Source: Mageeibacillus indolicus UPII9-5
GTDB lineage: Bacteria; Bacillota; Clostridia; Saccharofermentanales; Fastidiosipilaceae
Length of the DNA: 64,000 nt
Assembly: GCF_000025225.2 (NCBI RefSeq)
Contig: NC_013895.2
Span: 1,364,001 to 1,428,000 of the forward strand
Reading direction: 5' to 3'
The notes under the pieces are model-generated. The model was given only the letters and a program-made list of their open reading frames with translations. It had not been told where the DNA came from and did no database searches. The first letter of the stretch is position 1; each line of letters opens with the position of its first letter. A program made the position numbers and the translations under genes. Shown piece by piece: positions 6,635 through 22,510 of this stretch.

Positions 6635-7738
6635 TTACGCTATTTGTCTTAATCCTTCTGCTAATATATTCTTTGCGGCATTGACATCTCTATCGTGTAT
6701 TTCCCCGCAATTTGGACATTTCCATTGCCTTACGGATAAATCTTTTATGTTCTTATTTTGGCAACCACAACAAGAACATAACTGACTACTTGCGTAAAAA
6801 CTATCTACCTTAACATATATTCTATTGTTCCACTTTGCTTTATACTCTAGCTGTCTTGTGAGCTCATACCATGAAACGTCACTTATAGACTTAGCCAATT
6901 TATGGTTTTTTATCATATTTTTTATCTGCAAGTTTTCTGAAACAATCACTTGGTTTTCGCTTATTATTTCACTTGAAATCTTATGAAGATAATCTTTTCT
7001 GGTATTTGTTATTTTCTCATGGCATAATGCTATTTGCTTTCTTTTTTTCTGATAGTTCCTGCTCCCTTTTATTTTATGTGCAAGCTGTCTTTGCAATTTT
7101 GTAAGATTTCTCTCATAATTCTTTATTGTCTTTGAATTTTCGTATTTTCTCCCATCTGATGTAATACACAAATCCTTTATCCCCAAATCTAAACCTATTT
7201 TACCTCTTGTCTCCTGCTTTTTTACATTCTCTGTTTCTACTAAGATTGCTACATAATACTTTCCACTCGGCAGTTGTGATATAGTTGCCGATTTTATTTG
7301 CCCTGCAAAATTCCTATGAATTTTTGCTTTTATCTCTTTTAACTTTGGCAACTTTATTCTTTCTCTATCAAAATCTACAGTTATATTCCCATTTGTAAAA
7401 TTAGTTGTGTAGGATTTATGCCTATCGTGTTTACTCTTAAACTTTGGGCAACCTGCATGCTCTTTGAAAAACTTTTGATAAGCACTATCCATATGATAAA
7501 TTGCATTTGTTAAAGCAAATTTGTCTACTTCTTTCAGCCATTTATAAACTTTTTTCAGCTCTCTATTGCAATAATTATTACAGTCTGTTTTACTGATAGA
7601 GTTTTTTTCTTTTTCATAAGCATCTTTCCTGTATGCAAGGGTCTGATTATATACAAAACGGCAACAGCCAAATGTCTTTGCCAACTGTATTTCTTGCTCT
7701 TTACTTGGATAAATCCGATATTTATATGCTTTTAACAT
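6635..7738 (-). CDS. tnpB: TnpB RNA-guided endonuclease (IS605 OrfB)
   Basis: A complete 367-residue TnpB, the RNA-guided DNA nuclease ancestral to Cas12. Seen: N-terminal [15 protein letters not shown] with CCRFVYNQ, RuvC-I aspartate in GLDLGIKDL (D184), RuvC-II glutamate in IVSENLQ (E268), a zinc ribbon with CSCCGC (321-326) and CPNC (341-344), and RuvC-III in [11 protein letters not shown] (349 or 351). All catalytic positions are present, so the nuclease looks active. It normally uses an omega-RNA made from the 3' end of its own gene and the adjacent element end to retain the insertion site. It is 17 nt downstream of the tnpA remnant. Base composition is more AT-rich than the flanking genes. 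Confidence 0.93.
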
Positions 7739-16930: not shown

Positions 16931-19411
16931 TCATTCAGCCCTTTCAGCGTAACTTAGCCGTACGGAATTGGCAATAGCCGCCAAGGCCATCCCGACATCG
17001 CCAATGATCGCTAACCACAAAGGCAGCGGGGCAAAAAAGCCGTAAACGAAGAGGATAAGTTTCATGCCTAAGCTCAAAATGATATTTTGCCATGCGATTT
17101 TCTTAACACGTCCGGCCAGTTTTATCAAAAACGGCAACTTGACCAATTTATCCTGCATAAAAACCACATCGGCCGCTTCAGTGGCCGCATCGGTCGCCCC
17201 TGGCCCCATTGCTATTCCTACCTGCGCCAGAGCTAAGGCCGGAGCATCATTTATACCGTCACCGAGATAAATGACTTTGGCCTCTTCCCGTAACTTGTTA
17301 CGCAAAAGCTCCGTCTTTCCTTCCGGCAACAGCTGAGCATGCCATTCGTCAACCGCTAAATCTTTCGCAACTTTACGTACCGCAGACGAACGGTCACCGC
17401 TCATAATACACACTTTTTTTATACCTGACTTATGCAACTGTTCAATCACCGGCTTCGCATCCGGACGAACCTCATCTGTCAAATTGAAGGCAGCTATCGG
17501 CTCTTTGTCCCGGGTGAGCAGCAAAACCGTGTCTCCACTTTCCGTGTAACTCAACATACGAGTTTTGAGGCCATGACGTTCGGCACTACCCAGTTGCCAT
17601 TCCGCCCCTTCCCAGACCCCGCTTACACCAATGCCAGCCACTTCGCGCACGCTGATAGCATCTTCCGGCTGAGGAGCAACGCCCGCCTTTCCGGCAGCAA
17701 CCATTATCGGATTGGCCAGCGGATGGGTCGAATACTGTTCAAGTAACGCAGCAACCCGCAAAACAGTTTTTCCATCAACCACACCATGTGCTATCGCCTT
17801 GGCCGGATCAGTCAGCATGGTAATATTTCTAATGACAAATTTTCCGGTCGTCAATGTTCCCGTTTTATCAAACAACACCGTATCAGCGCGTCTTAGTGCA
17901 TCTAGAAATTTGCCACCCTTAACTAAAACCCCAGTCTTGGCCGCACGGCCTATCGCCGCAACATAGGCTAACGGCACCGAAATAACAATGGCACACGGGC
18001 AAGCCAATACCAAGATCGTCAACGCTTGATGGATCCAGTAAGAAAAGTTGCCACCAGTAAACAGCGGTGGGACAACCGCCAATATCACCGCCAATATCAC
18101 CGCAATCGGGGTGTAATAGTTTGCAAAAGAAGTTATCAAACGTTCAGTCGGGGCTTTGGCGAGACGGTTGCGCTCGGTCAGTGCAATCAGGCGGCTTATC
18201 GCTGATTCGGCATCAGGAGCTACCACCTTCAGCCATAAGCTCTCGTTTTGCACGATACTTCCGGCCGCCACTACTTGGCCGGCGGGGATATTTTGCGGTC
18301 GGCTTTCACCGGTTAACGCTTGCTGATCCACCAAACTTTCGGTTTCCTGATTGATCGCGTCCAACGGTACTGACTCACCGACATGCACTTCAATAATTGA
18401 TCCGACTTCAACGGATGCGGTCGGACAAAGCACCGTCGTACCGTCATCTTTAACTAGTCGCGTTAAATTAGGGCGCAGCGAACGCACAGCCTGCATGGCC
18501 ATACCGGCCTTACGTACGGCCCGTCCTTGCAACAATTCGCCGATTTCATAGAAGAAAAGTACGGCAACCGCTTCCAACCTCTCGTTCAGAATCATCGCTC
18601 CGAGCGAGGCAATTGACATCAGAGAAATTTCATCAAAAAAATAGCCATGCCGCCATTGTTTAAGCATTTTTTTGGCTAAAGGCAACGCAGAAAACAACCA
18701 AGCCGCTAAGGAAAAAATCTGGTAGGCCGGGGAAAAAGCATGGGCGATTATCAAGAGCAGGGCTACAGTAATCAGGCGAGGCCAGGCCCCCAACGACCAA
18801 TATTCCCGCCAAGCTTGTGGAAATTTGCGCAGTTGTGCCGCCAACTTCGCCGATTTTCCACTGGAGCTAAGTTCTGCTGCCGTGCCCGCGTTCTCAGCCG
18901 AATCGTTTCGAGTACTGCGAAGTGCTGTCTCGCCGTCGACTGGATTTTTCGATTTGACTGTGGTGGCAGAAATTTTGCTGGGTAAATGAAGCTTGTGGTT
19001 CGTCGGCCAAAGTTTGGCGGCATGATTTGTACGCCACGTCAATTTTCGAGCCGCACAGAATTCAGCGAATTTGTGCCGATCGAGACGTATGTACCCTACT
19101 CGTTCCATCACACGCGCCATGACTGCAGCGGAGATGGCTCCGCTTTCGTCGTCCTCGGGGTTCGCCAAGCGCACCGTTATGCCGTCCTCAAAAATTTCCG
19201 CTGTAGACTGGCATATTTGTAGCCAATCCTCGTCACCTGCCACTTCGAGATGCAGCCGAAATTCCGGAATCGTAATGAATGCCGTTATAACATCTTTCCT
19301 GTTCAGCAAAGCATGTTGAATTTTGCCGGCGCATTCCGCGCAGTTTAAACCGTCCAGTTTAAAAACAAAATGTTTTTTCCCACCGGTAGATAATTTAAAT
19401 TGTTTGCTCAT
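16931..19411 (-). CDS. cadA: heavy-metal P1B-type ATPase (Cd/Zn/Pb class)
   Basis: An 826-residue membrane pump that exports divalent soft metals using ATP. Seen in order: an N-terminal metal-binding domain with LNCAECAGK (CxxC), a long hydrophilic linker (about 130-210) that makes it longer than the usual 700 residues, then TM helices, the phosphatase TGES loop (LTGESRP), the ion channel CPC (LACPCAIVIS), the phosphorylation site FDKTGTLTTGK, HPLANPI, and the hinge GDGINDAPALA. The CPC plus HP set assigns the P1B class. GGAGG lies 5 nt before ATG. It is preceded by the cadC-like repressor 138 nt upstream on the same strand. Confidence 0.93.
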   Translation of the reverse strand: MSKQFKLSTGGKKHFVFKLDGLNCAECAGKIQHALLNRKDVITAFITIPEFRLHLEVAGDEDWLQICQSTAEIFEDGITVRLANPEDDESGAISAAVMARVMERVGYIRLDRHKFAEFCAARKLTWRTNHAAKLWPTNHKLHLPSKISATTVKSKNPVDGETALRSTRNDSAENAGTAAELSSSGKSAKLAAQLRKFPQAWREYWSLGAWPRLITVALLLIIAHAFSPAYQIFSLAAWLFSALPLAKKMLKQWRHGYFFDEISLMSIASLGAMILNERLEAVAVLFFYEIGELLQGRAVRKAGMAMQAVRSLRPNLTRLVKDDGTTVLCPTASVEVGSIIEVHVGESVPLDAINQETESLVDQQALTGESRPQNIPAGQVVAAGSIVQNESLWLKVVAPDAESAISRLIALTERNRLAKAPTERLITSFANYYTPIAVILAVILAVVPPLFTGGNFSYWIHQALTILVLACPCAIVISVPLAYVAAIGRAAKTGVLVKGGKFLDALRRADTVLFDKTGTLTTGKFVIRNITMLTDPAKAIAHGVVDGKTVLRVAALLEQYSTHPLANPIMVAAGKAGVAPQPEDAISVREVAGIGVSGVWEGAEWQLGSAERHGLKTRMLSYTESGDTVLLLTRDKEPIAAFNLTDEVRPDAKPVIEQLHKSGIKKVCIMSGDRSSAVRKVAKDLAVDEWHAQLLPEGKTELLRNKLREEAKVIYLGDGINDAPALALAQVGIAMGPGATDAATEAADVVFMQDKLVKLPFLIKLAGRVKKIAWQNIILSLGMKLILFVYGFFAPLPLWLAIIGDVGMALAAIANSVRLSYAERAE

Positions 19412-19549: not shown

Positions 19550-19990
19550 TCAATTGCCAAACTCATTGATGTGATCGGCACCTTGATCTAGTATGCCTTG
19601 AATATGAGCGTCCGACAGCCTGTAAAATACGCTGCGGCCCAATTTTTTGAAATTAACCAATTCTGTTTGACGTAATATTTTCAGCTGATGTGAAACGGCC
19701 GACTTGGTCATTTGTAGAATTTGTGCCAAATCGCAGACACAAAGTTCACGACTTTCCAAAGCGAACAAAATTTTTAAACGAGTAGGATCACCAAAAACTT
19801 TATAAAAGTCGCTTAGGCGGATCACCATCTGTTCCTCCGGCAAATTTGCTTTCGCCGCCGCTACCGCAATGTTGTGGGTATCGTGCGAGCCACACGTCGC
19901 TATGTGTGCTTTGGGGTGGGATGTATTTGCTGCCTGGCCTTTGTTTCTTGCCTGCAGCGTCTTTGCATTATTTTCTACTTTTGTAGCCAT
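19550..19990 (-). CDS. cadC: ArsR/SmtB/CadC-family metal-sensing repressor
   Basis: A 146-residue winged-helix repressor that releases DNA when it binds metal. Seen: the alpha-3 metal motif ELCVCDLA (CxC with following D), the recognition helix TKSAVSHQLKILRQ, and a C-terminal alpha-5 zinc motif with D/H...H/E spacing (SDAHIQGILDQGADHINE). Both metal sites therefore look complete. The first 45 residues are a polar extension, as in CadC proteins. The next gene is the cadA pump, and a palindromic operator overlaps the promoter, so it controls its own operon. Confidence 0.9.
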   Translation of the reverse strand: MATKVENNAKTLQARNKGQAANTSHPKAHIATCGSHDTHNIAVAAAKANLPEEQMVIRLSDFYKVFGDPTRLKILFALESRELCVCDLAQILQMTKSAVSHQLKILRQTELVNFKKLGRSVFYRLSDAHIQGILDQGADHINEFGN

Positions 19991-20025: not shown

Positions 20026-20055
20026 AGAATAGTTGAACAACTATTCAACTGTCAA
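20026..20055 (-). promoter_or_regulatory. cad promoter with overlapping palindromic operator
   Basis: On the minus strand a perfect TTGACA (20050-20055) and TATTCT (20026-20031) are 18 nt apart. A perfect palindrome with arms GAATAGTTG and CAACTATTC around AA (20027-20046) covers the spacer and -10. This matches the style of SmtB/CadC operators (TGAACA core), so bound repressor would occlude polymerase. Confidence 0.8.
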
Positions 20056-20121
20056 GAGCTTCCTGATTATTTTTTTACACATACCGGGCTGCTCGTTTCG
20101 GCCGACTACTACGACCGTTGC

Positions 20122-20615
20122 TTCAGACGTCTAGTTCAGACGGCCAGTTCAGACGGCCAGTTCAAGCGGCTGGTTCAGACGGCTAGGTAAGACGGCCAGT
20201 TCAAGCGGCTAGTTCAGACGGCTGGTTCAGACGGCCAGTTCAATCGGCTAGTTCAGACGGCCAGTTCAGACGGCCAGTTCAATCGGCTAGTTCAGACGGC
20301 TAGTTCAAGCGGCTAGTTCAGACGGCCAGTTCAAGTGGCTATTTCAGACGGCCAGTTCAGACGGCCAGTTCAAGCGTCTAGTTCAGACGGCCAGTTCAGA
20401 CGGCCAGTTCAATCGGCTAGTTCAGACGGCTAGTTCAAGCGGCTAGTTCAGACGGCCAGTTCAGACGGCCAGCTCAGACGGCTGGTTCAGACGGCTGGTT
20501 CAGACGGCTAGGTCAGACGGCCAGTTCAGACGGCCAGCTCAGACGGCTGGTTCAGACGGCTAGGTCAGACGGCTAGTTCAGACGGCCAGTTCAGACGGCC
20601 AGTTCAGACGGCCAG
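20122..20615. repeat. 38-unit 13-bp minisatellite
   Basis: Consensus TTCAGACGGCCAG repeats 38 times with no indel at all: 494 bp equals 38 x 13. Variants fall into a few classes (TTCAAGCGGCTAG, TTCAATCGGCTAG, CTCAGACGGCTGG, GTCAGACGG...). A block of six units at 20252-20329 is repeated identically at 20382-20459, so a 130-bp (10-unit) higher-order duplication is visible. Adjacent units can pair GGCC with GGCC over 9-nt loops. CTAG-containing variants place stop codons in a reading frame, so it does not look coding. It occupies the gap between the cad promoter and tRNA-Arg. Confidence 0.95.
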
Positions 20616-20785
20616 TTCAAGTGAATGCCCCGTAAAATATATTTTCGCCTATCCAACCTGCCAATATGTCATCAAAGGAATATTATGGTTTAATACTTGT
20701 ACGGCCTTAAAAAAGAGCAAAAAATAGCTCATGAGTATTTAATGGTTGAAATATAAGAAAAAGAGCTGAATGACATTCTTTTTTC

Positions 20786-20872
20786 ATGAAACTATCAGAC
20801 TTTGAATTATCAAGCTTTGAACCATCAGGCTTTGAACTATCCGACTTTGAACCATCAAGCTTTGCTGCCTGA
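20786..20872 (+). CDS. tiny repetitive ORF made of five 15-bp repeats
   Basis: ATG at 20786 opens a 28-codon frame reading MK, then LSDFE, LSSFE, PSGFE, LSDFE, PSSFA, A, stop. The DNA (20791-20865) is five copies of a 15-bp unit, with the stop just after the array. No good ribosome-binding site is seen; AAGAGC lies about 20 nt away, so translation is doubtful. I do not recognise the peptide. The unit core alternates TCAGAC and TCAAGC, as in the neighbouring 13-bp array. The rest of 20616-20946 is AT-rich and holds a small hairpin GAGC/GCTC at about 20715-20731. Confidence 0.3.
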   Translation: MKLSDFELSSFEPSGFELSDFEPSSFAA

Positions 20873-20946: not shown

Positions 20947-20975
20947 TTGAGTGTTACATAGGTTCCGTGTATAAT
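20947..20975 (+). promoter_or_regulatory. promoter of tRNA-Arg
   Basis: TTGAGT and TATAAT are 17 nt apart, ending 10 nt before the tRNA. Confidence 0.75.
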
Positions 20976-20985
20976 AGAAACAGTT

Positions 20986-21060
20986 GCCTCGGTGGCCTAA
21001 TGGATAAGGCGACAGTTTCCGGAGCTGTTGATACGGGTTCGATTCCTGTCCGAGGCGCCA
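20986..21060 (+). tRNA. tRNA-Arg (anticodon CCG)
   Basis: Acceptor GCCTCGG/CCGAGGC, anticodon stem ACAGT/GCTGT around TTCCGGA, T arm ACGGG-TTCGATT-CCTGT, discriminator G and encoded CCA. The anticodon CCG reads CGG codons. Confidence 0.93.
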
Positions 21061-21544: not shown

Positions 21545-22510
21545 ATGACCAACCGTCGTATTATCGGCGCTGCCAAGCTGGGTTTACTTTTGGTAGCTTT
21601 TCTCTGGGGAACTTCCATGACTGTCGTCGGAAGTGCGACAGCCAGTTTCCCATCTGCATTTATTCTCGGATTTCGCTTTACCGTTGCCGCTGTTCTCTTG
21701 GCAATAATTTTTCACAAACGCTTGTTAGCAGTAAAAGCCGACACTTGGCGCAGTGGCATTATAATCGGCCTCTTTCTCTTCGGTGCCTATTTTCTCCAGA
21801 CCTTGGCGGTTAATTTTACCACCCCGGGGCGGAGCAGTATTCTCGCGGCCATTTACTGTGTTATTGTTCCTTTCTTAATGTGGGCCATAACACGAGTACG
21901 GCCGGATAAGTTTAATTTAGTTGCCGCTGTCATTTGCGTTGTCGGCGTGATTTTGGTTGGCCAAGCTGGCAGCGCGATTACCACAGCGAATAATATCCCG
22001 GCCGGAATCATGCTGATTGGCGACACGATTGCTGTGGCTAGCAGCTTCCTTTACGCGGCTCACATTGTGGCAATCAGTAAATTAAGCACGGATCGTGACC
22101 CGATTGCACTTACGATTATTCAGTTCAGTGTCGCCGGAATCCTGTCTTGGATTGTGACATTATGCTTTGAAGATCACAGCAAGCTGGTTTTTTCTACCTC
22201 ATCATTAGGGCAATTAATCTATTTGGCCGTTTTCTGCACCACCATCGCCTTGCTGTTGCAAAATGTTGGGCAAAAATATTGTCCGGCTTCACAAGCTGCT
22301 ATTATCTTGGGTTCAGAATCCGTTTTCGGCGTTGTGTTCCCAGTCATGTTGCGCATCGAGAGTTTGAATCTTACCGCCGCTATTGGCTGTATAGCGATTA
22401 TTGTCGCTATATTTATTTCTGAAACAAAATTAAAATGGTTCTTTAAGGATAAAACTGAGTTGCCGGTTGAAAAGTCAGTTGACAAGTCTGATTTGCCGAT
22501 TGACAAGTAG
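21545..22510 (+). CDS. EamA/DMT-superfamily transporter
   Basis: A 321-residue membrane protein with about ten hydrophobic helices in two homologous EamA repeats, the form of drug/metabolite exporters. Seen: LLLVAFLWGTSMTVVG at the start, FLFGAYFLQTLAVNFTTPGRSSIL at the end of repeat 1, and the repeat 2 copy CTTIALLLQNVGQKYCPASQAAIILGSESVFGVVF. The last 25 residues are polar with a PVEKSVDKSDLPIDK tail. GAAGG precedes the ATG. Substrate is unknown; members export amino acids, nucleotides or toxic compounds. A hairpin lies just past the stop. Confidence 0.85.
   Translation: MTNRRIIGAAKLGLLLVAFLWGTSMTVVGSATASFPSAFILGFRFTVAAVLLAIIFHKRLLAVKADTWRSGIIIGLFLFGAYFLQTLAVNFTTPGRSSILAAIYCVIVPFLMWAITRVRPDKFNLVAAVICVVGVILVGQAGSAITTANNIPAGIMLIGDTIAVASSFLYAAHIVAISKLSTDRDPIALTIIQFSVAGILSWIVTLCFEDHSKLVFSTSSLGQLIYLAVFCTTIALLLQNVGQKYCPASQAAIILGSESVFGVVFPVMLRIESLNLTAAIGCIAIIVAIFISETKLKWFFKDKTELPVEKSVDKSDLPIDK

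Follow-up and report, generated by a model that had tools for sequence, protein, structure and literature searches.

A private 38-copy, 13-bp noncoding tandem array beside the cad-type metal-resistance genes of Mageeibacillus indolicus UPII9-5

In a 64,000-nucleotide stretch of the Mageeibacillus indolicus UPII9-5 chromosome (the window, positions 1364001-1428000) there is a head-to-tail array of 38 units of 13 bp, which is most probably a neutral noncoding minisatellite of the VNTR type, private to this lineage and sitting in a permissive spacer. We place the probability of this reading at roughly 0.8; the neutrality of the array and a copy number that varies between strains are the parts of it that we infer. 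Minisatellites and VNTRs are recognized as head-to-tail repeats of about 10-60 bp in several copies that grow by units and blocks, and the array shows both traits, with its 38 x 13 bp and with a six-unit block and an excess of identical units ten places apart.

The array comprises 494 bp with all units in phase. It had been claimed in an earlier note on this DNA that the 38 copies contain no indel and form neither a gene nor a CRISPR, and these descriptions hold. The TRF call (20122-20619, period 13, 38.3 copies, indels 0%, score 639) and the unit decomposition agree on the copy number and on the absence of indels, and an alternative TRF reading gives a 65-bp period with a score of 716. Stops interrupt six of the six reading frames within the array, which rules out a coding or peptide repeat, and the units abut with zero spacers between them, which rules out a CRISPR array with unique spacers between its repeats. 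The commonest unit, TTCAGACGGCCAG, is found 16 times among the 38 units; altogether there are 13 distinct unit types, seven of them singletons. Columns 2, 4, 8, and 10 of the unit are free of any variation, while columns 1, 5, 6, 11, and 12 hold 46 of the 51 off-majority cells. The units fall into two linked classes, one with GA at columns 5-6 (29 units) and the other with A and then G or T (9 units). In all nine units of the latter class, column 11 is T (Fisher p 0.0013, uncorrected for 78 column pairs).

The order of the unit variants points to the way in which the array grew. Units 11-16 are identical to units 21-26 at a lag of 10 units or 130 bp, just as the note had stated, and the longest exact internal repeat of the array is 86 bp (starts at 20248 and 20378). 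When the unit order was shuffled 2000 times, 12 shuffles contained a six-unit repeat. At lag 10, exact-unit identity was 0.43 vs 0.20 in the shuffles, a level reached by none of the 2000 (20 lags were looked at); at lag 5, which the 65-bp TRF period suggests, identity was not above the shuffles and 976 of 2000 reached it. The lag-10 excess and the 86-bp repeat bear out the proposal that the array grew partly by duplication of blocks. We suggest that replication slippage and/or unequal recombination multiplied one 13-bp word between the divergent cad operon and the tRNA-Arg gene, by single units and at least once by a block of about ten units, and that point mutations would have marked individual units in the meantime.

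The genes and sites around the array are collected in Table 1. The spacer is bordered by a divergent metal-resistance pair on one side and by the tRNA-Arg gene on the other side. The array begins 67 bp upstream of the -35 element of the regulator promoter and 76 bp from the perfect inverted repeat; the note rightly places it a short way upstream of the cad promoter, the regulator being on the minus strand (19550-19990) with its promoter-like site at 20055-20026. The promoter sites are consensus matches only, with 5 in the region vs 2.1 in shuffles. Neither the predicted promoters on the two flanks nor the probable operator overlap the array, and because these elements all lie outside it, the spacer would tolerate an array of this size. 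The gene at 21545 has matches in 33 of 58 genomes.

Table 1. The tandem array and neighbouring features (window positions).
Feature	Position	Strand	Basis or remark
Cadmium-family heavy-metal P-type ATPase (CadA-like)	16931..19411	-	TIGR01525, TIGR01512 over cut-offs
ArsR/SmtB-family metalloregulator (CadC-like)	19550..19990	-	PF01022 E 2.3e-19; NF033788 over cut-off
Predicted sigma-70-like promoter (TTGACA-18-TATTCT) for the regulator and ATPase genes	20026..20055	-	Consensus scan
Perfect 9-2-9 inverted repeat, probably the operator for the ArsR/SmtB-type regulator	20027..20046	.	Role inferred from position within the promoter-like site
13-bp tandem array, 38 units, commonest TTCAGACGGCCAG, noncoding	20122..20615	+	TRF, unit decomposition
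Six-unit block, first copy (units 11-16)	20252..20329	+	Same sequence as units 21-26
Six-unit block, second copy (units 21-26)	20382..20459	+	130 bp downstream of first copy
Shorter array, inverted relative to the first and weakly similar to it; units of ~15 bp that read about TTCAAAGYCTGATRG on the minus strand; membership uncertain	20790..20864	-	TRF, similarity tests
Sigma-70-like promoter site ahead of tRNA-Arg	20947..20975	+	Consensus scan
tRNA-Arg (CCG), divergent neighbour	20986..21060	+	ARAGORN; Rfam RF00005 at 20986-21057

Among the genomes searched, the array is confined to this one. A DNA search (E up to 10) of the 1.81-Mb genome (1,809,746 bp, single contig) returned this single locus and no second copy, which also removes an interspersed repeat family such as STAR from the candidates. 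A two-unit pattern with at most 2 mismatches was run against 188 genomes of the order. It matched 32 times in the own genome and, among the 187 others, once at an isolated site in G182; no comparable array was present in these 187 genomes at that tolerance, and the array pattern at 0 mismatches was not found in 57 other relatives. An exact scan of the GTDB-220 species genomes, which may leave out records of the window's own genome, returned only a locus of the actinobacterium Microbispora hainanensis (L009:3252-3292), where a 13-bp word one position off the commonest unit stands in 3.2 copies. This short repeat is probably independent of the Mageeibacillus array. Viral contigs gave 0 exact matches to the array, and the spacer found only short weak matches in plasmids (8 records) and phages (2 records), with a best E of 0.3 in each. 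The search for CadC homologues gave some match in 55 of 58 genomes and returned 15 loci, one of them the own locus; the other 14 (~3 kb each) contain no comparable array, their longest run of a unit of at least 6 bp being 3.9 copies of a 9-bp unit, besides one 102-bp duplication. In the open PMC literature, Mageeibacillus and tandem repeat were not found together and 13-bp intergenic minisatellites gave no match. Four 13-mers were also tried there: one is printed in a single paper, about an osteoporosis microRNA, and the other three are absent.

As sampled, this genome is somewhat richer in tandem arrays than one genome of the same family. TRF was run on 20 stretches plus the window, together 464 kb or 25.6% of the genome, and called 72 distinct arrays; in 28 of these there is no open frame of 100 codons. 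A same-family genome (G001; GC 0.336 vs 0.441 in the own genome) gave 40 arrays in 400 kb, of which 19 lack a 100-codon open frame, and the longest of these 19 is 72 bp. The larger number of arrays in the own genome would fit a general tendency to slippage better than it would fit a role peculiar to this site. The 13-bp array (498 bp by TRF) exceeds in length every other array in the sample that lacks an open frame; next come one of 406 bp (177-bp unit, 2.3 copies) and one of 160 bp, which is truncated where its stretch ends. The 406-bp array (L011:8492-8897) lies near the contig start and includes three exact TGTTTCACGTGAAACA palindromes, which we take to be parS-type sites.

Several further repeats were noticed in the course of this survey. 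At least five TGTC copies were found in three places. A minus-strand gene of 433 aa that resembles type I restriction specificity genes, hsdS-like in our reading, has a perfect (TGTC)21 tract (377163-377246; L015:17163-17246) within its 3' end and also a 12-bp repeat read as TAEL; the TGTC tract is likely a slippage (phase-variation) switch. A repeat-rich, surface-protein-like gene (L020:4465-6741) with an LPxTG-like end (IPKTG) has a perfect (GACA)14 tract (814249-814304; L020:4249-4304) ~160 bp upstream of it, and phase variation by promoter spacing is possible at this site. The last, (TGTC)12 (1558166-1558213; L125:2166-2213), lies ~160 bp past the stop of a minus-strand surface-protein-like gene (L125:2374-3975) that has an LPKTG end. 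After the surface-protein-like gene ending at 6741 there are also 21-22-bp units rich in AGTTTCAG/GTTCA (L020:6828-7007), and just past them a reading frame that to us resembles a DNA methyltransferase fragment. Kinship of the 13-bp array with this 22-bp repeat was rejected, with scores of 10-20 where other repeat stretches reach 22.

A plain minisatellite leaves some features to be accounted for: the 498-bp length of the array, the zero indels together with the crowding of variation into five columns, a known functional motif inside the unit (the decamer of the Neisseria DUS), and a weakly similar inverted array nearby. The earlier note had offered a protein-binding array, a structured RNA, or a fast-evolving spacer. 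The spacer is the best fit of these three, with the array missing from the 187 other genomes of the order, and its fast evolution is presumed. Nothing found here supports the protein-binding reading: there is one locus with no copies elsewhere, and the palindrome that probably serves as the operator lies outside the array and has no good match inside it.

The half-site core of ArsR/SmtB repressors is TTCA, and the array might act in cis on the cad genes, either with its units as degenerate half-sites, titrating the repressor or letting it spread, or through a copy number that tunes the promoter. The short distance to the promoter and the inverted repeat is consistent with such a role. So is a 13-mer, TTCAACTGTCAAG at 20044-20056, which shares 10 of its 13 positions with the unit variant TTCAAGCGTCTAG, stands in exact 13-bp register with the array and overlaps the inverted repeat. 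PMC5179023 credits tandem repeats adjacent to promoters with modulating expression. However, matches of at least 10/13 to some unit type occur at a fraction of 0.00087 of the position-strands in the window outside the array, and with ~1000 position-strands in the flanks, a single such match near the operator is unremarkable, its register aside. The 20-bp operator finds a best match of 9/20 in the array but 14/20 elsewhere in the window, TGAA is absent from the plus strand of the array, and perfect inverted repeats in the array have no arms over 5 (gap 0-8). An array of ArsR/SmtB operators was thus rejected, as the palindromic operator is not repeated inside. The other CadC loci examined, 14 in number, lack such an array, and a period of 13 bp would not hold sites on one helical face. 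On this balance we regard a cis-regulatory role as unlikely.

The shorter array of ~15-bp units, separated from the 13-bp array by about 170 bp, would allow another arrangement in which the two make up one element, with protein-binding repeats flanking a 170-bp core, or in which one array was inverted and has diverged. The two arrays have a GTTCARR core in common. The spaced pair GTTCARR-N5-9-GTTCARR has 21 forward and 3 reverse matches in the whole genome (reversed control, 1 and 0), and 3 lie outside both arrays. The gapped local score between the arrays is 25, which was reached by 12 of 1000 same-permutation shuffles, and the best of nine other repeat stretches scored 22; in the ungapped comparison, 3 of 150 were as good. 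Against this, the same score of 25 was reached by 13 of 12,330 ordinary 75-bp segment-strands, the GTTCARR core was picked after the sequence was seen, and recombinase, Rep, and Par families were matched by none of the eight neighbouring proteins scanned. The similarity of the inverted array is suggestive at best, and a single composite element seems quite improbable.

The resemblance to the Neisseria DNA uptake signal rests on an exact match. The decamer GCCGTCTGAA is found on the minus strand of 23 of the 38 units, and PMC3388099 describes it as the canonical DUS, a decamer that is functional by itself in meningococcal transformation. The repeat could then be derived from Neisseria DNA, or could attract the Neisseria ComP protein. 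It is true that the decamer has a low probability of arising by chance in one repeat word: the chance is ~2.5e-5 for a random 13-mer, and 164 of 1,000,000 permutations of the commonest unit contain it. The window has 23 matches, all within the array, with 0.09 expected. Of the 28 occurrences of TTCAGACGGC in the whole genome, however, 23 lie in the array and only 5 outside it, and the reversed control also gives 5. The two bases preceding the decamer are TG (16), TA (5), or CA (2), vs AT in the extended dodecamer; the exact GTDB scan, presumed to include Neisseria, returned no Neisseria locus with such spacing, and the plasmid and phage matches of the spacer are weak. Because the rest of the genome holds the decamer at background level, we read its presence in the unit as an uncommon coincidence. 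A functional or ancestral link of the array to the Neisseria DUS is unlikely on these counts, and descent from Neisseria DNA or attraction of ComP has very little in its favour as a specific account. A Neisseria-type uptake system was rejected, as the decamer shows no genome-wide over-representation. The competence family PF03772, presumably of the ComEC type, was matched in the own genome and in 10 of 14 control genomes and has no bearing on the DUS. It is hardly credible that the array would be a functional DUS mimic beside a metal-resistance operon, biasing DNA uptake by naturally competent Neisseria that would share the habitat. A famous motif may sit in a repeat word without the genome using the corresponding system, and the counts outside the array argue for this.

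A structured noncoding RNA or repeat transcript is very unlikely: the plus strand does fold slightly better than dinucleotide shuffles (z -1.85, 4/100 as good), but its MFE of -169.8 was equalled or bettered by 56 of 60 unit-order shuffles and 46 of 60 column permutations, minus-strand folding was equalled by 35/60 and 58/60, respectively, and stood at z +2.64 against dinucleotide shuffles (100/100 as good), and no Rfam family reached its gathering score in the array (the window yields two tRNAs only). The unit and column controls do not support the RNA proposal on either strand, and since the predicted divergent promoters enclose the array, no read-through into it would be expected.

We therefore return to the neutral minisatellite and compare it with known repeat systems. 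Iteron and partition-site arrays are short direct repeats, as is the array described here; the present one is chromosomal, beside a tRNA and cad genes, and the eight scanned neighbour proteins include no Rep or ParA/ParM-like family. The Neisseria DUS and 23 of the 38 units have a decamer in common, but there are about 2000 DUS copies per Neisseria genome according to PMC3388099, whereas the excess here is tandem and confined to one array. Staphylococcal STAR elements, as described in PMC3532100, are also intergenic direct repeats, locus-specific and able to expand and contract; they are interspersed with internal spacers, while the array has one locus and no spacers. The closest likeness is to the VNTRs of Burkholderia pseudomallei, which in PMC1853098 are likewise intergenic, noncoding, and head-to-tail, and were measured to gain and lose units, singly or several at a time. 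Those loci have 4 to 21 copies of 3-16-bp motifs, compared with 38 copies at a single locus in this genome, and degenerate arrays of 500-1000 bp were also screened in that study. The Mageeibacillus array is ordinary in kind yet unusually long, and a long noncoding array at a single locus of a one-contig genome is a candidate marker for strain discrimination.
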